NCBI GenBank assembly: GCA_016936355.1
Contig: JAFGYB010000066.1
Coordinates: 62,001-126,000 of the forward strand
Direction of reading: 5' to 3'
DNA length: 64,000 bases
Origin: Bacteroidales bacterium
Lineage (GTDB): Bacteria > Bacteroidota > Bacteroidia > Bacteroidales > F082
Shown: positions 19,333 through 37,986 of the stretch, piece by piece
Layout of the letters: every line of letters begins with the position of its first letter
Numbering within the stretch: the stretch's first letter is position 1
Notes under the pieces: model-generated
What the model was told of the DNA's origin: nothing
Database searches by the model: none
The model's input: the letters and a program-made list of their open reading frames with translations, nothing else
Program-made: the position numbers and the translations under genes

Positions 19333-21096
19333 TCAGTCCCTGATGATGAATTGATGCAATACCTGGAACAGTTCGTCCGGTTTAAACGGTTTGGCAATAA
19401 ACCCATCCATTCCGCTTTCCATAGCCTTTTCCCGGTCTTCACTCAGTGCATTGGCCGTTAAGGCAACAATATACGTGTGCCTGTTTTTGTTTTCTTTTTC
19501 GTGGGTACGGATTTTCCTTGTTGCTTCGAGGCCATCCATGATGGGCATCTGAATGTCCATCAGGATCAGGTCGTAAAAGTTTCGTTGGTATTTCTCATAG
19601 CATTCTTCCCCGTTATTTGCCACATCCACACTGCACCCTTCTTTCTGAAGGGTGAGTTTGGTGATCTTCTGGTTGATCAGATTGTCTTCAGCCAGTAAGA
19701 TTCTGAAGTCTTTCAAAACATTGAGAACCATATTTTTGTCGTAAGATAAGCGTTCTTTTTCTTCGTGCACTTCCAGGGGCAAAGTAAACCAAAAAGTCGA
19801 TCCCCTGGTCCATTCACTTTCCACTCCGATTTCGCCTCCCATCATCTCCACCAGTTTTTTGGCAATAGAAAGTCCCAGTCCCGTTCCCTGGTAAACTTTG
19901 CTGGCTGAAAGATCCAGCTGGATGAAACTTTCAAACAGTTTGTTCAGCTGTTGTTTTTGTATCCCGATGCCGGTGTCTTGCACTTCAAACTGCAACAGTA
20001 CTTTCCCTTTTTTGATTTCTTTTTTGTTCAGGATGCGCAGGGTAACGCTTCCTTCTTTGGTAAACTTGATGGCGTTGGAGAAGAAATTATCCAGGATTCG
20101 TTTGATCAGCAGCGGATCCCCAATCATGATCTCGGGAATGTTCGGATCCAGATCAGTTTTTACCGATAATTTTTTGTGCGCAATTTTTTCTTCGTGTTGT
20201 TTGGTTACTTCCTGGACAATTTCTGTGATCTTGAATTTTTTCAGGGTGGGAGAAATTTCCCCTTTCTCAATAGAGGAATATTCAAATACATCGTTGATAA
20301 TGGACACCAGGTGCTCTCCCGATTCTTTCAGCATGCCCAGGTATTCCCCCTGTTCTTTGGTGAGTGATGTTTTTTCGATCAATTCGGCCATACCCATTAC
20401 CCCGTTGAGCGGCGTACGGATCTCATGGCTCATATTGGTAAGGAACTTGTCCTTGATGTGTTCGTTTTGTTCGGCCAGTTCTTTGGCTCGTGTCAGCGCT
20501 TGTTCGTAGTTTTTTTGGTCGGTAACGTCCCAGGATACACCGATCAGGCCAATGATTTTTCCCTCGTCGTTGCGAACCGGAGCAATGTTCGTCTGAACCC
20601 AGATGATTTCCTCATTTTTTTCCAGTTGTTCTTCGATGTTGAAGAAAAATTTTCCCTGAGAAAGGACCATCTCTTCTCTTTTTTCATAATCCCCGATGGG
20701 GAGATAATTCCTGAATACCTCTTTGAGGGTTTTTCCCATCAGCTCGTCGCGTTTCACGGCTGAAAAATCGAGAAAGGCTTTGTTGGCCACCCGGTAACGC
20801 AGGTGTTCATCCTTAAAATAAACCATTGCCGGAATGGTGTCCAGGAGTATGTTTAGTTCGTCGGCCTGATTTTTGATTTGTTTGAGGGCCTTTTTCAGGT
20901 CATCCGATGTTCGGGCCAGTAAGGAATTCAGAATGTTTTTGTCCTTAAGCGATTTGGATATTTTAAAGTCGGCAATACTGATCTCCTGAGCTAATTTTTC
21001 AATATCCTGAAGCATTTCAAGCTTCACCCGTTCCATGGAACCGGCCTTTTCCAGGGTATTTATTCTATCGGTGAGGGATTGAAGAATTTTTTTCAT
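19333..21096 (-). CDS. PAS-containing hybrid sensor histidine kinase/response regulator
   Basis: PAS (YFKDEHLRYRVANKAFLDFS), H-box [21 protein letters not shown] boxes NFFSNAIKF, DTGIGI, GTGLGLSI, C-terminal receiver DLILMDIQMPIMDGLEATR...FIAKPF. Confidence 0.93.
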   Translation of the reverse strand: MKKILQSLTDRINTLEKAGSMERVKLEMLQDIEKLAQEISIADFKISKSLKDKNILNSLLARTSDDLKKALKQIKNQADELNILLDTIPAMVYFKDEHLRYRVANKAFLDFSAVKRDELMGKTLKEVFRNYLPIGDYEKREEMVLSQGKFFFNIEEQLEKNEEIIWVQTNIAPVRNDEGKIIGLIGVSWDVTDQKNYEQALTRAKELAEQNEHIKDKFLTNMSHEIRTPLNGVMGMAELIEKTSLTKEQGEYLGMLKESGEHLVSIINDVFEYSSIEKGEISPTLKKFKITEIVQEVTKQHEEKIAHKKLSVKTDLDPNIPEIMIGDPLLIKRILDNFFSNAIKFTKEGSVTLRILNKKEIKKGKVLLQFEVQDTGIGIQKQQLNKLFESFIQLDLSASKVYQGTGLGLSIAKKLVEMMGGEIGVESEWTRGSTFWFTLPLEVHEEKERLSYDKNMVLNVLKDFRILLAEDNLINQKITKLTLQKEGCSVDVANNGEECYEKYQRNFYDLILMDIQMPIMDGLEATRKIRTHEKENKNRHTYIVALTANALSEDREKAMESGMDGFIAKPFKPDELFQVLHQFIIRD

Positions 21097-26777: not shown

Positions 26778-27294
26778 AACAGTAAAATAGATCAAAAATT
26801 ATTTATAATATATAGTAAATCAGGAACCTGATTTTTTCGGGTGCCTATCCCTGATTTTGTTGCAATGTACAACACAAAACCAATGATTGGACCAAAATTT
26901 TATTCACTGCAATGTGTTAATAAATATTAAATAACGCAGAATTAAAATATTACGCATTTAATTCGATGTGAATATCACTGAAAAAATTTTTTGGCACAGT
27001 TTTTAGTGTCTTTTACCCTCTCTGTAGAGCCTTGTAATTTAGTTATTTATCAATATTATATAGAACTCTTTTAAATACAATCTTTGTATCCATTGATAGT
27101 AAAGGGATTCAGGAATCTGTGAAATTTAATATGCATTTTCCGAAAAGGTTTGCGGAAAAAATAAAGTCATTTTTTCTGCCAATATTTATGCTTTGTTTGG
27201 GGGCAATAATTAACAATTCAATGCTAATAAAATCTTGGCGAATCACCCGGATACCGTTTTCAGGTCTTGTAAATTTGAGTCAGAAACTAAATTT

Positions 27295-27642
27295 ATGCGG
27301 TTTTTCCCCGATACCATCGAAAATGAGATCCAGGCTCGCCTGAATTACAAAAGACTGGCTGTTCTGTATCACCCGGACCGGGGCGGCAATGAAGAAATCA
27401 TGCGGGCGATCAATCAGGAATATGATCTGATCAAGAAAAAACTAAAAAAACAACGTCAGGGCCTGCAAAGTGTGCAGGTGGGCGACAGGGTTCGTGTTAA
27501 CGGAACCGAGTGTGAAGTAACAGCTGTTTTTAAAGATAGTTTTGTCGCTAAGGCGGTCGGTCGTCACCGGCTGGCTGTTTTCGATAAAAAAACCGGTATT
27601 GCATTGTACGATCATAAATTCAAGGCAGAGGTCATTCTTTAG
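27295..27642 (+). CDS. Small J-domain (DnaJ-like) protein with C-terminal beta-rich segment
   Basis: MRFFPDTIENEIQARLNYKRLAVLYHPDRGGNEEIMRAINQEYDLIKKKLKK (HPD motif). ATG 27295 chosen; the 27235 start gives an unconvincing extension. Confidence 0.75.
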   Translation: MRFFPDTIENEIQARLNYKRLAVLYHPDRGGNEEIMRAINQEYDLIKKKLKKQRQGLQSVQVGDRVRVNGTECEVTAVFKDSFVAKAVGRHRLAVFDKKTGIALYDHKFKAEVIL

Positions 27643-27805
27643 TATACTAACTCCTTTTAAATCATATCCATATTTGTTTTCTGAACGAAGCGGATTCCAT
27701 TTTTTCTGAATTTCAGGAATGAAGCTGTGTTGCTTTTTCCCCTGAAAGTTGCAGGGAAGGTAAGGTCATCGCGGAAAAATACATATATTGCAGTAGTAAA
27801 TATCA

Positions 27806-27831
27806 TACCGGATTTTGAAAATTATCCGGTA
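27806..27831. promoter_or_regulatory. Perfect inverted repeat TACCGGAT-N10-ATCCGGTA upstream of the chemosensory operon
   Basis: 8-bp perfect arms with a 10-nt spacer, 28 nt upstream of the likely STAS start (27859). Confidence 0.5.
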
Positions 27832-27858
27832 CAAACAGACCGTATTTACAGCAAAGCT

Positions 27859-28170
27859 ATGATGCAGATTCAGGACGAGGAAAAAGGAAAAACTCAATAT
27901 TTATTTCAAGGTGATCTGGGAGTTTCGGCCTTGCAGGAAATCTATTCGCAACTCAGCGAACAGAAGATTCAGAAAGGAACCCATTATTTCCGGGTCAGTG
28001 AAGTAGAACATTTGGATATGAGTTTTTTTCAGGTATTGTATGCTTACATTCAGCAACTGAGAAAAGAAGGAAAGGAAGTAATAGTAGATTTTCAGCTGGA
28101 TGAAGAAAATGGCCGGGTGTTTGATCGTTCGGGCCTGAGAAAAGCATTTGATCACTTAATAAACGGTTGA
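27859..28170 (+). CDS. STAS-domain-like protein of the chemosensory operon
   Basis: HYFRVSEVEHLDMSFFQVLYAYIQQLRKEGKEVIVDFQ...FDRSGLRKAFDHL resembles MlaB/SpoIIAA-like STAS; ORF extends to 27727 but ATG 27859 fits domain size. Confidence 0.65.
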   Translation: MMQIQDEEKGKTQYLFQGDLGVSALQEIYSQLSEQKIQKGTHYFRVSEVEHLDMSFFQVLYAYIQQLRKEGKEVIVDFQLDEENGRVFDRSGLRKAFDHLING

Positions 28171-28172
28171 AT

Positions 28173-28538
28173 ATGAGGAAAACAATACTCATTGTGGATG
28201 ATTCATTCAGTATCCGTAATTTATTACAGGTTGTACTGACAGGGGCCGGATACCAGGTGTTGGTGGCTGAAGACGGTAAGGATGCGTTGCCCTACCTGGA
28301 GCGAGGGGATTTGAGCTTGCTGATTACTGATTTACACATGCCCAATATGAACGGACTGGAATTGATCCGACATGTACGGCAAACCGAAATCCATCGTTAT
28401 CTTCCCATTTTGTTTCTCACTACCGAAACCAATTCGGAAATAAAATTGGAGGCAAAAAATGCCGGTGCTACCGGGTGGATCACCAAACCATTCAGGAATG
28501 AAAAATTATTGCAGATCATAAACAGGGTATTGCGTTGA
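28173..28538 (+). CDS. cheY: CheY-like response regulator
   Basis: ILIVDDSFSIRNLL, LLITDLHMPNMNGLELI, FLTTE, WITKPF. Confidence 0.9.
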   Translation: MRKTILIVDDSFSIRNLLQVVLTGAGYQVLVAEDGKDALPYLERGDLSLLITDLHMPNMNGLELIRHVRQTEIHRYLPILFLTTETNSEIKLEAKNAGATGWITKPFRNEKLLQIINRVLR

Positions 28539-30589
28539 TGGAAGAACTGCGTGCAAAATTTCTGGAAGAAGCCCGTGAGTTAATGGGGAAACTTGAGGCT
28601 GCATTGCTGGAACTGGAAGCCAATCCTAATGACAAAGAAAGGATTGATGAAGTATTCAGGGTGATGCATACACTGAAGGGTTCTGGAGGTATGTTTGGTT
28701 TCAATGCATTGAGTGAGCACACCCATGACCTCGAGAGCGTTTACGATCTGGTCCGGTCCTCGAAGCTGCCTCTGACTAGGGAACTGATCGATGTTACTTT
28801 CCGTAGCATGGACCTGATAGGGAAGTTGTTGGAATCTCCCGAGGATCCTTCAATCCTGAAACTGAAAGATGATTTTGCTGAAAATATTAAGGAAAGGTTT
28901 TTGAACCATCCTGTAGGCGCTCCGGATACGCGGTCTGATTTCACGGTACGTCAGAAGGACGACAACACATCAAAAGTTACCTACCACATTCATTTTCAGC
29001 CCGGAGAAGGCGTGCTGAAAGACGGAACCCATCCCTTGTATTTGTTGGATGAGTTGCTTGATTTGGGGACTGGAAAAGCTTTTGTTCATATGGATAAGCT
29101 TCCTGAATTTGAGTCGCTGGTTCCTGATCTGGCCTATTTTTACTGGGATTTCCTGTTGGCAACTGCTGAAGCAGAGTCTGATATAAAAGATGTTTTCATT
29201 TTTGTGGAAGACAACAGTGTGGTTGAAATCAATAAAATAGCTGAAGAAGATCTGTTGCAAAACGAGTTTTTTAATGCGGAAATTGAAAACTTAAAGCTGG
29301 AGGAAACATTTACCCGCGATAAACTGGACCGGTTGGTGGAAGTGTTGCAAAATAAAAAGCCCGCCGAACCAGAAGAGACAACAAATGAAGAGAAGATGCC
29401 TCCCCCTCAAGCCGAAAGACCGCAGGTAGGGGAACTAAACAGTATCAGGGTTTCGTCTGCCAAGCTGGACAATATGATGGACCTCGTTAGCGAGCTCATA
29501 ACGGCTCAGGCGCGACTGGAACACATGGGGCGAAAACTGAAAAGTAGTGAATTGCAACGGGTGGCCGAAGATTTTGAAAAATTATTCAGGCAACTCAGAT
29601 CCAATACGCTGGAGATGCGACTGATTCCTATCTACACGTTGCTGGCCCGGTTTAAACGAATGGTCAGGGATTTATCGCATGATCTGAACAAACAGGTCCG
29701 GTTTCAGACCACGGGAACGGAAACGGAACTGGATAAATCAGTGATTGAAATGCTGTATGACCCGTTGATGCACATCATCCGCAACAGCCTTGATCATGGC
29801 ATTGAATTGCCCGATGAAAGAGTGAAGCTGGGTAAGCAACCCGAGGGACTGATTGAGATAGTGACGTATTATTCCGGTTCCTATGTGGTCATAGAAGTGC
29901 GGGATAACGGACAGGGAATGGATCCCGAAGCGATTCGCCAAAAAGCCCTGGAAAAAAACCTGATTTCCGCTTCGGATAAGCTGGATCACGATGAACTGTT
30001 AAACCTGGTATTTCACCCGGGTTTCAGTACTTCAAAACAAGTCAGTCAGTTATCGGGGCGGGGTGTGGGCATGGATGTGGTTCGGAAGAACATTACAGAA
30101 TTGAGAGGTTATGTGGAACTGAACAGCATAAAAGGTAAAGGAACGACCGTACGCATCCGTCTGCCCCTGACACTGTCCATTATTGACGGACTGCTGGTAT
30201 TGATCGGAAATGCGCGTTACCTGGTTCCGCTTGAAAACATTGTTCACATTTATCCTCTGGAAAAGAAAGAACTGGAAAAGGCTGGTTTCAGTGGCGCTGT
30301 GGTCAAGGAAGGAAACCAAATTCAATTTGTTCATTTGATCCATGAATTCGGGGATACCCGTTTCGTTTTTGAAAAAGGATATTTACTGGTATTCCGGTTT
30401 GAAAACAAGGAAATTGGTTTTGTGATCAACGAAATTGAGGGAAAACACCAGGCGGTAATCAAGCCACTCAATCAATTTGTAAAAGGTAAGGAACTGTTTT
30501 CGGGAGCCACTGTGCTGGGTGACGGAAAAGTAGCCCTGGTGGTCGATCCGTATAGGATGATGCAACAATATACAAATACACTGCAATGA
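28538..30589 (+). CDS. cheA: Chemotaxis histidine kinase CheA
   Basis: P1 MHTLKGSGGMFGF; dimerisation/P4 HIIRNSLDHGIELPDER, DNGQGMDPE, FHPGFSTSKQVSQLSGRGVGMDVVRKNI; CheW-like P5. Confidence 0.95.
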   Translation: MEELRAKFLEEARELMGKLEAALLELEANPNDKERIDEVFRVMHTLKGSGGMFGFNALSEHTHDLESVYDLVRSSKLPLTRELIDVTFRSMDLIGKLLESPEDPSILKLKDDFAENIKERFLNHPVGAPDTRSDFTVRQKDDNTSKVTYHIHFQPGEGVLKDGTHPLYLLDELLDLGTGKAFVHMDKLPEFESLVPDLAYFYWDFLLATAEAESDIKDVFIFVEDNSVVEINKIAEEDLLQNEFFNAEIENLKLEETFTRDKLDRLVEVLQNKKPAEPEETTNEEKMPPPQAERPQVGELNSIRVSSAKLDNMMDLVSELITAQARLEHMGRKLKSSELQRVAEDFEKLFRQLRSNTLEMRLIPIYTLLARFKRMVRDLSHDLNKQVRFQTTGTETELDKSVIEMLYDPLMHIIRNSLDHGIELPDERVKLGKQPEGLIEIVTYYSGSYVVIEVRDNGQGMDPEAIRQKALEKNLISASDKLDHDELLNLVFHPGFSTSKQVSQLSGRGVGMDVVRKNITELRGYVELNSIKGKGTTVRIRLPLTLSIIDGLLVLIGNARYLVPLENIVHIYPLEKKELEKAGFSGAVVKEGNQIQFVHLIHEFGDTRFVFEKGYLLVFRFENKEIGFVINEIEGKHQAVIKPLNQFVKGKELFSGATVLGDGKVALVVDPYRMMQQYTNTLQ

Positions 30590-31071
30590 AAGAAACAACA
30601 GCCACCGAATCCAATCATTATATTTCATTCTCGCTGGCGGGTGAATTTTTTGCTATTGATGTACAGCATGTTACGCAGGTGATGCGGGCCAGCTCATTCA
30701 CATCGGTACCTCAGGCACCGGATTTCTTAAAAGGAGTCACGAACTTCAACGGGAAGATTATTCCGGTTGTAAACCTGTATCAGAAATTTGGCTTTCACGA
30801 ACCGGAGGAAAAAGAGCATCAGCTTATCATTATCCTGACTGTGCTGTTTCAGGATGCAGAAGTGGAAATTGGCATTCTGGTAGATTCTTCTGATGAGGTT
30901 TTTGAATGGAACCCGACCGATGTTAAACCCTATCCGGTTTCGGGAAACCAGGAAAAAGGCGCCTATATTGAAGGGGTGATTCACCGAAAGAATCGATTCT
31001 CATTTGTCCTGAAAGTCAATAGTTTGTTTGCTGATAACGAAATAAAAAATTTAACGAATACGGAACAATAA
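30586..31071 (+). CDS. cheW: CheW-like coupling protein
   Basis: ISFSLAGEFFAIDVQHVTQVMRASSFTSVPQAPDFLKGVTNFNGKIIPVVNL; ATGA overlap with cheA. Confidence 0.92.
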   Translation: MKETTATESNHYISFSLAGEFFAIDVQHVTQVMRASSFTSVPQAPDFLKGVTNFNGKIIPVVNLYQKFGFHEPEEKEHQLIIILTVLFQDAEVEIGILVDSSDEVFEWNPTDVKPYPVSGNQEKGAYIEGVIHRKNRFSFVLKVNSLFADNEIKNLTNTEQ

Positions 31072-31082
31072 ATCTTTGAATC

Positions 31083-32705
31083 ATGAAAAGTCTGACGTAT
31101 AAAACAAAAATGATCCTCATGCTGGTGTTTGTCCTGGTGGTCATATCCTTCATGTGGTTCTATAATCTGGGCCAGTTTGGCGTTTTTTACCACGATACGG
31201 AAAACCTTTCGAAAAGCGATCAGGTGGATGTGGAACTGACCACACAGTTACTGATTCCTTTTATGGATCAGGTGGAATATCCCCTGCTTAGTTCACAACA
31301 TAAACAACTTTCTTTGGACCAACTGATTGTATTAAAACAAAACATTTCAAAACTTCAGGAAGATGTAAAAAGGATCTCCTCAATAAAGACCAACAGCCAG
31401 GTTCAGGAGATGGCTGCCGATTTTCACCAGGTTTTGCTTTTGGCCGATCAGTATATTGCCTTGCTGGACAAAAAAGGACAGGAGGATTTGAAGGTTCAGA
31501 CCCTGACAGCCTTCCTGAGCCAGGGAAAATCATTGAAACAAAAAGTAAGAAACTATATCAACAGTAAGAAGACTGCTGCGCTGGACCGGGTGTCATTTCT
31601 GAGCCAGCGATATAATAGTATCAAGACCAACGACCTGATTGTCGGGCTGACCTCTTTCCTGATTGTTCTGATTTTCGGAGCATGGTTGATTAGTGGAATA
31701 GCCAGAAAGTTCAAGATTGCCATAAAAATTCTGCACAAACTTTCTGAAGGTGAAATTACCGTAAAGATACCCCAGGTTCCGAATGATGAACTGGGGTTGG
31801 TGATCAGAAAAATATCGACCTTGCGCGATCAGCTGGCACTGACTTTGAATAAAGTGTATGAGATGGTGGACAATCTGACTGTTGCCAGCCGCGACCTGAG
31901 TGCTTCATCACAGAGTATTTCACAGGGAGCAACTGAACAGGCATCGTCCACAGAAGAAGTCTCCTCATCGATGGAAGAAATGGTAGCCAATATTCATCAG
32001 AATTCGGAGCATTCGAAGAAAGCGGCCGGTCTTTCTGAAAAAATGGCCGAAGGGGTTCAGGATATTGTGGTAGCCGCCGGAAATAGTCAGCAAAAGATTA
32101 AGGAAATTGCCAAAAAAATTGGCATTATCAATGAAATTGCCTTCCAAACCAATATTCTGGCGCTGAATGCTGCAGTAGAAGCCGCCCGTGCCGGAGAACA
32201 CGGTAAGGGATTTGGTGTGGTAGCTGTGGAAGTAGGTAAGCTGGCAGACCGGAGCAAAGAAGCGGCAGCTGAAATTGAAGAACTGGCCCGAACCAGTGTT
32301 GAAGTCATTCATGATGCCGGAAATCTGATCGATGAAATTGCGCCTACAATCAGTACCAGCGCACAGATGGTGAACAATATTTCCACTGCCAGTGAAGAAC
32401 AAATTCTGGGGGCTGAACAGATTAACGATGCCATTCAGCAACTCAATGAAATTACCCAGCAGAATGCTGCGGCTTCGGAAGAAATTGCCACCAGTTCAGA
32501 GGAACTGAATGCCCAGTCAGAGGCCTTGATGGATGCCCTTTCATTCTTTAAACTGGATGTGCAAACAACGATCAATGCCAGCAAAAAGGTTTCCGGTGAA
32601 AAAAAGAAACTGCCCGAAGCCAAAAATGCCAAACGAAACACTTCAGGAGTACGCATTGATCTGGGGAAACCCGATGCCATGGATGATGAATTTGAACGCT
32701 TCTGA
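31083..32705 (+). CDS. Methyl-accepting chemotaxis protein, two TM, HAMP
   Basis: Two TM segments; HAMP; signalling tip NEIAFQTNILALNAAVEAARAGEHGKGFGVVAVEVGKLADRS. Confidence 0.95.
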   Translation: MKSLTYKTKMILMLVFVLVVISFMWFYNLGQFGVFYHDTENLSKSDQVDVELTTQLLIPFMDQVEYPLLSSQHKQLSLDQLIVLKQNISKLQEDVKRISSIKTNSQVQEMAADFHQVLLLADQYIALLDKKGQEDLKVQTLTAFLSQGKSLKQKVRNYINSKKTAALDRVSFLSQRYNSIKTNDLIVGLTSFLIVLIFGAWLISGIARKFKIAIKILHKLSEGEITVKIPQVPNDELGLVIRKISTLRDQLALTLNKVYEMVDNLTVASRDLSASSQSISQGATEQASSTEEVSSSMEEMVANIHQNSEHSKKAAGLSEKMAEGVQDIVVAAGNSQQKIKEIAKKIGIINEIAFQTNILALNAAVEAARAGEHGKGFGVVAVEVGKLADRSKEAAAEIEELARTSVEVIHDAGNLIDEIAPTISTSAQMVNNISTASEEQILGAEQINDAIQQLNEITQQNAAASEEIATSSEELNAQSEALMDALSFFKLDVQTTINASKKVSGEKKKLPEAKNAKRNTSGVRIDLGKPDAMDDEFERF

Positions 32706-32717
32706 TATTGATGAATT

Positions 32718-33584
32718 GTGACTTCAGCGAAAAAACATAGCACTCCCAAGTTTACTTCACCTTTTGGGAACCTGAAGCCGGCAGATTTTAACAGACTGAG
32801 TCAGTTTATTTACACTGAGTTTGGCATCCATCTTCCGGAGAAAAAACTGTATTTGGTCCAGAACCGGTTGACTAAAAGGCTCCGTGAACTGAATATGGAG
32901 AGTTATACTGAGTATGCCGACTATGTGCTTCAGGGCAACAAAGAAGAAGTACTGAAAATGATTGAGGTGATCTCCACCAACAAAACCGACTTTTTTCGGG
33001 AACAACGTCATTTTGATTTTTTGTCGGAGGTGATTCCTGAAAAGTGGAAGGGAGAAAACCTAAAGCTGTGGAGTGCCGGATGTTCTTCCGGTCAGGAAGT
33101 GTATTCCCTGGCCATGTTGCTGGAGAATTTTCGCGAAAGAAACATCATTGGCGATTATCAGGTGTGTGGTACCGATGTGTCTGCTAGGGTGCTGGAACAG
33201 GCTCAACTGGCTGTGTATCCGTATAAATATGCTGAAGATATCCCTGAACCTTACCGAAAGAAATATCTGTTGAAAAGCAAGGATCAGACCCATTCCAAAA
33301 TCCGAATAGCTCCGAATATCAGAAAGAAAACGTGTTTTACCTGGATGAATCTGGCTACCGGAATGTATAATTTCCCCGAGGATTTTCATATGATTTTTTG
33401 CCGAAATACCCTGATCTATTTTGACCTGACTGTTCAGCAAAAAGTTGTAAACGGATTGCTGGAACATCTGCTGCCCGGTGGATATTTGTTTGTGGGACAT
33501 TCCGAAGCATTGATAAATATGAACATCAAGGGGCTGAAACTGATCAGTCCGTCTGTATACCAGAAAATTGAATACCATGAATGA
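32718..33584 (+). CDS. cheR: CheR methyltransferase (GTG start)
   Basis: ISTNKTDFFREQRHFDFL, LKLWSAGCSSGQEVYSLAMLLE, MIFCRNTLIYFDLTVQQKVVNGL, GYLFVGHSEAL. Confidence 0.93.
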   Translation: MTSAKKHSTPKFTSPFGNLKPADFNRLSQFIYTEFGIHLPEKKLYLVQNRLTKRLRELNMESYTEYADYVLQGNKEEVLKMIEVISTNKTDFFREQRHFDFLSEVIPEKWKGENLKLWSAGCSSGQEVYSLAMLLENFRERNIIGDYQVCGTDVSARVLEQAQLAVYPYKYAEDIPEPYRKKYLLKSKDQTHSKIRIAPNIRKKTCFTWMNLATGMYNFPEDFHMIFCRNTLIYFDLTVQQKVVNGLLEHLLPGGYLFVGHSEALINMNIKGLKLISPSVYQKIEYHE

Positions 33585-34428
33585 AACAACCAATCAACAA
33601 CTCATCCGGCTTAAAGAAGAGAACAGAAGGCTGGAAAAACAGTTGGAAGAACTAAACAAAAAGCTTCTGGAAGCTGAAGCGTTCAAGAGCCACTTCATTT
33701 CCAATGTTACCAACGAAATCGTTAATCCCTTCGCCTCCATTCTCGGGTTGTCGAAAAGTATGATGACTGCTGAAGAACATCAGAAAGAGGAAGTTTGTCA
33801 CCTGGCGGGTCTTATCTATTCCGAAGCCTCGTTCCTCGATTTTCAGCTGAACAATACTTTTACCGCTGCCAAACTGGAAGCGGGCGAAGTATTTGTTGAG
33901 GTAAGCCCTGTAGAACTAGGGCAATTGATGGAAGAAGTACTGGAAAGTGTGCACCCCGATCAGGAGCGTAAACAGATGAATATCAACTTTGAACTGCTTC
34001 CCGAATCTCCGTTGTATCTTCATACCGACAGGGAGAAGTTAAAGCTGATTCTGATCAATCTGATCAGCAACGGTATCAAATTCTCAGACAACGGGAAGTC
34101 AGTAAGGATTACGCTTAAAGTATCAGAAAAGAATCTTGAAATACAGGTGGCGGATGAGGGTATCGGCATGGATGAGAAGGAAGTTGGGAAAATCTTTGAT
34201 CGTTTTCATCGTGCCGACAAAAGAATTCATTCCCTCAACCCGGGTAATGGGCTGGGCCTGGCTGTTGTAGACGGATTGGTACATGTGCTGGATGGATCTG
34301 TTACGGTGAAAAGCAGTCCCGGTAAGGGCAGCACCTTTATTGTCAGTCTGCCGGAATCGCTCAGTGAATCCGATTTTTTTGATGAAGATGGTTTGTTTGC
34401 AAAAGATGAAGAGCAAGAATTTTTTTAA
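33577..34428 (+). CDS. Soluble histidine kinase-like protein with His-to-Asn H-box (pseudo-kinase candidate)
   Basis: Coiled coil, FKSHFISNVTNEIVNPFASILGL (canonical SHE.R.P position occupied by TNE.V.P), HATPase motifs LINLISNGIKF, ADEGIGMDE, GNGLGLAV. Confidence 0.88.
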   Translation: MNETTNQQLIRLKEENRRLEKQLEELNKKLLEAEAFKSHFISNVTNEIVNPFASILGLSKSMMTAEEHQKEEVCHLAGLIYSEASFLDFQLNNTFTAAKLEAGEVFVEVSPVELGQLMEEVLESVHPDQERKQMNINFELLPESPLYLHTDREKLKLILINLISNGIKFSDNGKSVRITLKVSEKNLEIQVADEGIGMDEKEVGKIFDRFHRADKRIHSLNPGNGLGLAVVDGLVHVLDGSVTVKSSPGKGSTFIVSLPESLSESDFFDEDGLFAKDEEQEFF

Positions 34429-34907
34429 TGAATCAGGGCGAATACAGTAAATATTACCTCTATCCGGGAAGTTTGTTTGCCGACAGACAGCCTTATTATA
34501 TCACCACCCTTTTGGGTTCGTGTGTATCGGTTTGTTTGTACGACAGGCGACAACACATCGGAGGCATGAATCATTTTTTATTGCCGATGTGGAACGGTAA
34601 GGGACTGGCCTCGCCCAAATATGGAAATATCGCTGTTCAGCAGCTTGTCGAAAGGATGCATCAACTGGGAAGCCGCACGCCCGATTTGATCGCTAAGGTA
34701 TTTGGCGGGGCTTCTGTGCTGGAAAGCCAGAATAATGTGTTTTTTATTGGAGACCGAAACATTCGGATTGTGCAGGAGTTACTCGAAAAGGAAATGCATA
34801 TTAAAATTGTGGCCTCCAGTACGGGAGGCAATCTGGGCAGGAAAATAGTTTTTGATACACTGACTGGCGAGGTAAGACAAAAGTATCTCGGGAATGGAAA
34901 AACCTGA
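34428..34907 (+). CDS. cheD: Chemoreceptor glutamine deamidase CheD
   Basis: ITTLLGSCVSVCLYDRRQHIGGMNHFLLP (Cys/His), KVFGGASVL, GRKIVFDTLTGEV. Confidence 0.94.
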   Translation: MNQGEYSKYYLYPGSLFADRQPYYITTLLGSCVSVCLYDRRQHIGGMNHFLLPMWNGKGLASPKYGNIAVQQLVERMHQLGSRTPDLIAKVFGGASVLESQNNVFFIGDRNIRIVQELLEKEMHIKIVASSTGGNLGRKIVFDTLTGEVRQKYLGNGKT

Positions 34908-34916
34908 AAAATATTT

Positions 34917-35984
34917 ATGGGGAATAAGAAGTTTAAAGTACTGATTGTGGATGACTCAAGGATTGTGAGCGAGTTGTTGACTGAGCTGGTGGAAAGCGAC
35001 GCTGATCTCACCGTGATGGGAACGGCTGTCGATCCCTATGAAGCAGTCAGGCTGATTCAGAACGAAACTCCGGACGTAATTCTGCTGGATATTGAAATGC
35101 CCAAAATGAACGGAATTACTTTTCTGAAAAAGATCATGAGTCAGCATCCCATTCCGGTGGTCATCTTTTCCGGCGTAGCGGAAGTCCATTCCCAAAATGC
35201 AATGGACGCCCTTCGGTTTGGGGCACTGGATGTTATTCCTAAGCCCAAAAGTGTTGATCCCAGGGCAATAGAGGAAACGCGAACACGAATTCTGTTTTCC
35301 TTAAAAGCAGCGGCTCTTTCCAGGAACCGGTTGCATTTGATCCGCAGTCAAAGACCGGAGCAATATGATGGTTCCCAAAAAGAGCACCCGAAGGTCCGGT
35401 TGACAGAAAAGGAAGTCAATAAGGTGATCGTTATGGGTGCTTCTATTGGAGGAACCCAGGCAATTGAATACATTCTTACACGACTCAAACCTACTGCTCC
35501 ACCGATCCTCATCACGCAACACATGCCCGGAGGTTTTACCCGTTCGTTTGCCGAGCGATTGGAAAGTATCTGTCCGCTTACCGTATCGGAAGCAGAAGAA
35601 AATCAGGTGCTGGAGCAGGGTCATGTGTATATAGCCAACGGATACTATCATTTACAGTTGGCCAGAACCGGTATGCATTATAAAGTCAGATTGACCGATG
35701 ACGAACCGGTAAACCGACACAAACCTTCAGTGGATGTATTGTTTTGGTCGGCTATTAAAAGTGTATCCCCCGAGAAGTTAGTGGCCATCTTGCTCACAGG
35801 TATGGGGGAAGACGGAGCCCGGTCCATGCTCGACCTGAAACACGCTGGTGCCCTGACCATAGCACAGGACGAAAAGTCTTCGGTGGTGTGGGGAATGCCC
35901 GGAAAAGCGGTAAAAATTGGGGCTGCAACACAGGTTCTTTCCCTTTCCGAGATAACCGAGGTCCTTAACAAATTGAAATGTTGA
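34917..35984 (+). CDS. cheB: CheB protein-glutamate methylesterase
   Basis: Receiver VILLDIEMPKMNGITFL; esterase GASIGGTQAIEY, ITQHMPGGFTRSFAERL, LLTGMGEDGARSM. Confidence 0.95.
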   Translation: MGNKKFKVLIVDDSRIVSELLTELVESDADLTVMGTAVDPYEAVRLIQNETPDVILLDIEMPKMNGITFLKKIMSQHPIPVVIFSGVAEVHSQNAMDALRFGALDVIPKPKSVDPRAIEETRTRILFSLKAAALSRNRLHLIRSQRPEQYDGSQKEHPKVRLTEKEVNKVIVMGASIGGTQAIEYILTRLKPTAPPILITQHMPGGFTRSFAERLESICPLTVSEAEENQVLEQGHVYIANGYYHLQLARTGMHYKVRLTDDEPVNRHKPSVDVLFWSAIKSVSPEKLVAILLTGMGEDGARSMLDLKHAGALTIAQDEKSSVVWGMPGKAVKIGAATQVLSLSEITEVLNKLKC

Positions 35985-36023: not shown

Positions 36024-37589
36024 ATGACGGTAGAAAAGAAAAAAACCAGGATTCTGGCTGTGGATGATATGCAGGTGAATTTGGATTTGATTTCTCAGGT
36101 ACTGGGTCAATTGGAAGATTATGTTGTGGTTACAGCTTCCGATGGAAAAACAGCCATCAGAAAGGCCCGGTCGAACCATTTTGATCTGATTTTACTGGAC
36201 GTAATGATGCCCGAAATGGATGGTTTTGAGGTGTGTCGCGTTTTGATGAATGATACGATTACACAAGATGTTTCTGTGATTTTCCTTACAGCTTTAAACG
36301 ATCCTCCAAATATACAGAAAGCTTTTCGTGCCGGGGCCGTGGATTATATTTCCAAACCTTTTTCAAAAGAGGAATTAATATCCAGAGTAAGTTTGCATAT
36401 CCGGTTAAAACAAAATATGAATGAGCTCGTACAGGCCAGAAAACAAGCCGAAACAGCTGTAGAAGCGAAAGCTATTTTTCTCGCCAATATGTCTCATGAA
36501 ATCCGAACGCCCATGAATGGAATTATTGGCACGGTGGATATATTGAGACGAACTCCGCTTACAGAAGAGCAGCAGGAATATTTAACAATAATCGAGTCGT
36601 CGGGTGAAAGCCTGCTGACCATTATCAATGATATTCTGGATTATTCAAAGATTGAGGCAGGACGAGTGGAATTGGAACAAATTCACTTTGTTTTATCGGA
36701 TGAACTCAACAGTATGATGCGTATGTTGCAGATCGTTGCTGGTAAGAAGGGGCTCAAGCTGGAAATGGAGCTGCAGGATGACCTTCCAAAGGTCGTAGGC
36801 GACCCTGTGCGTCTCAAACAAATTATAATTAACCTGGTGAACAATGCAATTAAATTTACGGAAGAAGGAAAGATCACTCTGTCAGTGAAACTGCAAAAAC
36901 AGGTTGGATCGGATCACGGAATCTTTATTTTCAGTGTAACCGATACGGGAATTGGTATTTCAAAGGAGGGGCAGAAACGACTGTTTCAATCTTTCTCGCA
37001 GGTGGACAAATCCACAACCCGAAAATACGGAGGTACCGGACTTGGTCTGGCCATCTGTAAAAACCTTTCCGAAATGATGGGCGGAGAGATCGGGGTAGAA
37101 AGCGAAGAAGGAAAGGGAGCCTGTTTCTGGTTTACAGCCCGGCTGGGTATATCAAAAAACAGTGATCAGAAAACCGTTAAGCCCGTTCGCGAAGAACCTC
37201 ATTGTAACCAAGTAAAAAATGTCCTGCTGGTGGAGGATAATGTAATTAACCAGAAAGTAGCTTCTGCTTTTTTAAAGTATTTAGGCCATAATGTAGACAT
37301 TGCAAATAACGGGGCAGAAGCATTTGAAATGGTGAAAAAGCAGGCCTATGATATTGTGTTGATGGATGTGCAGATGCCGGTTATGGATGGAATGGAAGCA
37401 ACCCGTGAGATCAGGCAGTGGGAAGAAAGAGAAGGCAAGTCAGAAAAGCTTGTCATTGTCGCTATGACAGCAAATATCCTTCAAAACGATCGAGATAAAT
37501 ATATCGAAGTTGGTATGAACGATTTTGTGAGTAAACCCTTTAAAGAAGGGGAGTTATTGTCGGTTTTTAAAAAATTTACTAAAGAATAA
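36024..37589 (+). CDS. REC-HisKA-HATPase-REC hybrid kinase
   Basis: N-terminal receiver [18 protein letters not shown]-box [34 protein letters not shown]-terminal receiver [19 protein letters not shown]...FVSKPF. Confidence 0.94.
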
Positions 37590-37599
37590 TCCTACAGGA

Positions 37600-37986
37600 A
37601 TGGAAAAATTAGACAAATTCGATTTTAATGACAAAACGATCTTAGTGGTGGAAGATACAGAAACCAGTATTCGTTTTTTCGATGCTGCATTGAAAAGAAC
37701 CAATGCAAAAACTTTGTTCGCAGAAGATGGTGACGAAGCCATTAAATTGTTTGATGAAAATGAGATCGATCTGGTTTTGCTGGACCTGAACCTTTTCACA
37801 ACCAGTGGTTTTGATGTGTTGCGACACATTCGCTCCAAAGACAATAGTACCCCTGTAATTGTTCAAACAGCATACATTTTGTCGGGTGAAGAACAGATCA
37901 GCCGTGAAATGGGAGCCAATGATTTTATGGCGAAACCCATCAAGTTAAACAGCTTGCTTCAGTCGCTGAACAAGTTTTTACAATGA
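37600..37986 (+). CDS. Stand-alone response regulator receiver
   Basis: TILVVEDTETSIRFF, LVLLDLNLFTTSGFDVL, VQTAY, FMAKPI. Confidence 0.9.
   Translation: MEKLDKFDFNDKTILVVEDTETSIRFFDAALKRTNAKTLFAEDGDEAIKLFDENEIDLVLLDLNLFTTSGFDVLRHIRSKDNSTPVIVQTAYILSGEEQISREMGANDFMAKPIKLNSLLQSLNKFLQ

Follow-up and report, generated by a model that had tools for sequence, protein, structure and literature searches.

A pseudo-histidine kinase conserved in Bacteroidales chemosensory operons as a candidate CheY~P phosphatase

RESULTS

A kinase-like gene between cheR and cheD

The window, a 64,000-nucleotide stretch of Bacteroidales DNA, carries a chemosensory operon encoded on the plus strand. Next to cheA (28535-30589; Hpt, dimerization, HATPase, and CheW domains by Pfam) lies cheY1 (28167-28538), a single-domain response regulator that is 53 to 88% identical to the counterparts adjoining cheA in related loci and that we propose as a substrate of the protein described below. 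Pfam also identifies cheW (30586-31071), a chemoreceptor gene (MCP; MCPsignal; 31083-32705) whose product has the C terminus EFERF, cheR (32718-33584), cheD (34428-34907), cheB with REC and methylesterase domains (34917-35984), a REC-HisKA-HATPase-REC hybrid kinase with SHEIRTP intact (36024-37589), and a second single-domain response regulator (37600-37986). Between cheR and cheD lies the pseudo-histidine-kinase gene that is our subject (33577-34428; here called pHK). Farther upstream, the ORF before cheY1 (27727-28170) matches no Pfam family, resembles a STAS protein by eye, and has a homologue in 15 of 80 related loci by blastp; a small ORF just upstream of the operon (27235-27642) resembles a J-domain protein by eye.

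The 8-bp overlap of pHK with cheR (33577-33584) and the TAATG at its junction with cheD (34426-34430), both reported in the first-pass annotation of this DNA, are present as described. Operon context was counted in 80 related loci, the best 80 of 274 relatives. At these loci cheR is the upstream neighbor in 76 and cheD the downstream neighbor in 77, at median gaps of 22 bp and 9 bp, respectively; neighboring genes there typically adjoin without overlap. Only a minority of related loci has a close homologue of the hybrid kinase.

Domain structure and H-box of pHK

The confirmed reading frame encodes a soluble protein of 283 amino acids, without a sensor domain and with orthologues in other genomes. 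HisKA and HATPase_c are its only Pfam domains, the latter scoring 93 bits and the former 24.2 bits, just below the cut-off of 26.9; there are no PAS input domains and no match to CheC or CheX. An N-terminal helix (residues 1-35; 33577-33681), heptad-like in sequence and predicted to form a coiled coil, leads into helix 1 of the HisKA-like DHp domain (residues 36-104; 33682-33888), and the AlphaFold2 (AF2) model has a helix over residues 3-63 with pLDDT values of 79 to 92 within the part covering residues 1-35. The HATPase_c (CA) domain follows (34027-34356) with N, G1, F, and G2 boxes all intact, in line with the first reading of the sequence, in which the ATP-binding motifs looked intact, and the protein ends in a conserved acidic tail that is predicted to be disordered (34381-34425). 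Structure prediction, one of the checks that the earlier annotation had called for, returned an ordinary DHp-CA subunit (pTM, 0.76) with a disordered ATP lid and tail (pLDDT of <50 across residues 265-283), and the best structural matches were histidine kinases. The closest of these, obtained with an earlier AF2 model built on a shallower alignment, were HK853 complexed with RR468 and DivL (4q20); likeness to HK853 in its regulator-bound form is a weak pointer to the state of pHK.

The H-box reads KSHFISNVTNEIVNPF, with Asn46 (AAC, 33712-33714) at the position of the phosphoacceptor His, Glu47 (33715-33717) directly after it, Val at +3, and Asn50 (33724-33726) at +4, the position of the phosphatase residue in HisKA proteins and the equivalent of N375 in CrdS (PMC3510030). 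The first-pass annotation had read both the Asn and the Val-Asn pair correctly, although the peptide that it quoted, SHFISNVTNEIVNPFAS, starts at 33688 and not at 33691, one codon off. It was also right that SHEIRTP is retained by both remaining HisKA kinases of the window, namely the hybrid kinase that starts at 36024 and one on the minus strand near 19762-20502.

Fixation of Asn in a distinct family

Searching 60 related genomes with the whole protein, and so without bias toward the H-box, recovered 18 orthologues (36 to 73% identity, all stand-alone proteins of about 270 to 305 amino acids). Asn occupies the phosphoacceptor position in all 18, ruling out a sequencing error or a mutation in a single strain. 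The wider survey covered 84,980 species genomes and yielded the 274 relatives from which the best 80 were taken. Selection in this survey was in part on the H-box, since NEI formed part of one of the two patterns used; the survey is evidence for the breadth of the family and not for the Asn itself, and the 18/18 result of the unbiased search counters the concern that the pattern was the source of the Asn.

Among the 89 distinct family members, N46, E47, N50, and P51 (N-E-x-x-N-P) are invariant, and the +3 residue is I, V, Y, or M and never basic. Of the ATP-binding boxes, N, F, and G2 are wholly or almost wholly preserved, and a small number of members deviate in G1. Both Asn codons are used at position 46 (AAT, 49; AAC, 30), indicating that the constraint acts on the residue. 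The 50 most similar paralogous kinase domains all keep the His, and 48 of them have Thr at +4, which makes the Asn at +4 a trait of this family. Conservation peaks in the two DHp helices, the expected docking site of a response regulator (mean of 0.88 for helix 1 and 0.84 for helix 2, versus 0.66 for the CA domain). One pHK (L021, genome G048) lacks the G1 box (ENEGEII) and keeps NEIINP, a hint that its lineage may be able to dispense with nucleotide binding.

The family is one clade: in a maximum likelihood tree, a branch with support of 100/100 sets 26 representative members apart from the other sequences. A phylum-wide sample of 396 genomes contained no orthologue beyond the window's own genome (next best match, 186 bits versus 395 for the family), a result that speaks to the separateness of the family and adds no members to it. 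Cultured genera with pHK are Marinilabilia, Labilibacter, Carboxylicivirga, Breznakibacter, and Perlabentimonas; a plasmid search gave no match. The original description of a pseudo-kinase tied to a Che operon stands, and it applies far more widely than a single gene could show, the substitution being fixed in a family found in many Bacteroidales. Of the three observations that it had set against its own reading, orthologues with His and degraded HATPase motifs across homologues did not occur; for the third, a nearby alternative conserved His that autophosphorylates, His39, present in 87 of 89 members, is an imaginable candidate.

The conserved C-terminal tail

The last 15 residues of pHK have a consensus of GNE, a hydrophobic residue, FF, an acidic residue, and E[ITV]F-COOH, and the terminal Phe is found in 86 of 89 members. 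The C-terminal pentapeptide through which CheR and CheB bind chemoreceptors has the form x-[HFYW]-x-x-[HFYW]-COOH. W2 and F5 predominate in such pentapeptides (PMC7390727). None of the 89 pHK tails fits this form, and we did not adopt the idea of an MCP-type CheR/CheB pentapeptide, although the two kinds of tail share an E-x-F end. More probably, the tail serves to dock pHK onto a partner. Chemoreceptor tails encoded in the same operons fit the pentapeptide form in 46 of 51 cases; the same-operon MCPs (31083-32705 in the window; loci L038-L117) have a tether-like, acidic-aromatic end, D[YF]E[KRS]F, with Tyr or Phe for the usual Trp.

Co-occurrence with CheA

CheA was detected in 19 of the 60 related genomes, and 18 of these 19 also carry pHK. 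The sole CheA genome without pHK has a weak CheA match of 24.6 bits, and in the one genome with pHK where CheA went undetected, a contig end cuts the CheA gene short. Three genomes (G052, G045, and G051) have several CheA genes, with 5, 3, and 2 matches to PF02895, respectively, some of them partial, yet one clear pHK each. CheC, CheX, and CheZ were each found in 0 of the 60 genomes by Pfam-based searches, which recovered all three in control genomes and may miss diverged phosphatases. Against a phosphatase reading of pHK, many chemosensory systems do without any CheY phosphatase of their own.

DISCUSSION

What the H-box pattern predicts

Work on CrdS separates the demands that kinase and phosphatase activities place on the H-box. 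Kinase activity requires the His and an acidic residue at +1, and full kinase activity requires a basic residue at +3; Asn or Thr at +4 serves phosphatase activity exclusively, and replacing the Asn abolishes it (PMC3510030). A His mutant of CrdS still acts as a phosphatase, giving CrdA~P a half-life of 2.6 min versus 53.5 min unaided (PMC3510030). In every member of the pHK family, the His is gone, +3 is no longer basic, and +4 is still Asn, as one would expect if the protein were a phosphatase and not a kinase. The invariance of Glu47 is not explained by CrdS alone, where Glu at +1 is a kinase-only residue. Together, Glu47 and Asn50 spell E-x-x-N, which is also the motif used by CheY phosphatases of the CheX type (PMC3510030) and is here invariant and on a different fold. 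Glu is catalytic in ExxN phosphatases, so its retention in pHK fits CheX-like chemistry better than CrdS chemistry.

CheC acts together with CheD in other bacteria, and the position of pHK beside cheD recalls that pair; the analogy suggests that CheD may regulate pHK. Of the three roles that the first-pass annotation had offered, scaffold, phosphatase, and trans-kinase, the sequence favors the second. We judge the chances to be about even that pHK is a kinase-dead, HisKA-fold phosphatase of CheY~P (or CheB~P), set beside CheD in a CheC-like place. Such a protein would not autophosphorylate at the canonical site, His having become Asn. CheY1~P would dock onto the DHp four-helix bundle, where Asn50, perhaps with Glu47, would position a water molecule that hydrolyzes the aspartyl phosphate. 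This activity may be tuned by nucleotide bound to the CA domain, which is intact, and by a partner, for instance CheD. In this role pHK would fill the place of CheC, CheX, or CheZ. A fuller version of the proposal, to which we commit ourselves more tentatively, is that a histidine kinase was turned lineage-wide into a dedicated CheY~P phosphatase, with Asn for His, an ExxN motif placed on the HisKA bundle in convergence with CheC and CheX, CheD as its pair, and T9SS gliding as the probable output of the chemosensory systems concerned.

Other readings of the same protein

A possible, if less probable, reading takes DivL as the model, with pHK acting as a phospho-sensor or scaffold. Its DHp domain would bind CheY~P (or CheB~P) without hydrolysis and relay this state through the CA domain or the tail to CheA, CheR, CheB, or CheD as feedback. 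DivL, the best-characterized pseudo-histidine kinase, has neither kinase nor phosphatase activity and binds DivK~P (PMC4211667), and its structure is among the top matches to the pHK model. The integrity of the CA domain would suit an interaction hub, as would a tail that is disordered and conserved, and pHK sits amid the adaptation genes cheR, cheD, and cheB. Pure binding, however, need not fix Asn at +4, where related kinases have Thr, and it leaves CheY~P without a known phosphatase. Precedent also counsels care: PhyP, once called a histidine kinase-type phosphatase, proved to be a phosphotransferase (PMC5898713), and together with DivL, which binds without hydrolyzing, it illustrates that assignments of this type can fail. 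PhyT acts through a His (PMC5898713), one that pHK does not have.

It is improbable that pHK is still a kinase, either by using His39 as an alternative phosphoacceptor or by phosphorylating a partner kinase from its CA domain in a heterodimer. The ATP-binding boxes are conserved, Glu is kept at +1, and the well-conserved His39 shares a helix face with Asn46, which it precedes by seven residues. His39 is nevertheless Asn in two members, is two helical turns removed from the site of catalysis, and has Phe rather than an acidic residue after it, and the basic +3 residue is gone. As for a partner, CheA comes with Hpt and HATPase domains of its own, and no close homologue of the neighboring hybrid kinase is conserved across loci. 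The completeness of the CheA kinase apparatus and the absence of that homologue from most loci make trans-phosphorylation the least likely of the three roles, and we reject the idea that pHK generally works as a partner of the REC-HK-REC kinase. That pHK is a decaying or redundant kinase without function, as loss of the catalytic His alone might suggest, is contradicted by the conservation of near-perfect ATP boxes, tail, and operon position over many Bacteroidales families, and we dismiss it.

Output and significance

GldL, of T9SS gliding, was found in 57 of the 60 related genomes, FliM in none, and PilT in none above the cut-off. With gliding genes present and FliM and PilT not found in this set, the chemosensory output is probably T9SS gliding, or else something other than motility, and a possible route from chemoreceptor to gliding is indicated.

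Two questions meet in pHK: how cells that lack CheC, CheX, and CheZ turn CheY~P off, and whether a His-less HisKA protein with E-x-x-N can be a pure phosphatase. An affirmative answer would provide a natural separation of kinase from phosphatase within the HisKA family. Cultured Marinilabilia, Labilibacter, Carboxylicivirga, and Breznakibacter are organisms suited to such tests.

Comparison with known systems

Of the features that mark an active HisKA kinase, pHK has the DHp and HATPase_c fold with its N, G1, F, and G2 boxes, and Asn replaces the phosphoacceptor His in 89 of 89 members. The mark of a HisKA-type phosphatase, Thr or Asn at +4, is present as Asn in the same 89. DivL of Caulobacter resembles pHK in combining a HisKA and HATPase_c fold with a retained ATP domain and a replaced phosphoacceptor His, in its case by Tyr. 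Unlike pHK, it has PAS input domains, serves cell-cycle control, and is without phosphatase activity (PMC4211667); pHK for its part has no sensor domain, carries Asn at both 0 and +4, lacks a basic +3 residue, and is encoded in a chemosensory operon. CrdS and HK853 share the DHp-CA architecture, and there Thr or Asn at +4 drives phosphatase activity (PMC3510030), but both are active bifunctional kinases that have their His. The ExxN motif links pHK to CheC, CheX, and FliY, whose fold is unrelated and with which no sequence homology was detected. CheA3 of Rhodobacter sphaeroides is, like pHK, a kinase-related chemosensory protein, and it is the needed CheY phosphatase where CheZ is absent (PMC2924250); it differs in belonging to the CheA proteins, with an Hpt domain that can be phosphorylated and a phosphatase region apart from it, rather than to the HisKA pseudokinases. 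No curated NCBIfam model names the pHK family, and searches of the open-access literature found no description of it, so it appears to be undescribed. Pseudo-histidine kinases and HisKA phosphatases are both kinds already known. What pHK adds to them is a conserved, near-obligatory chemosensory component, and with it a core part of Bacteroidales chemosensory pathways.
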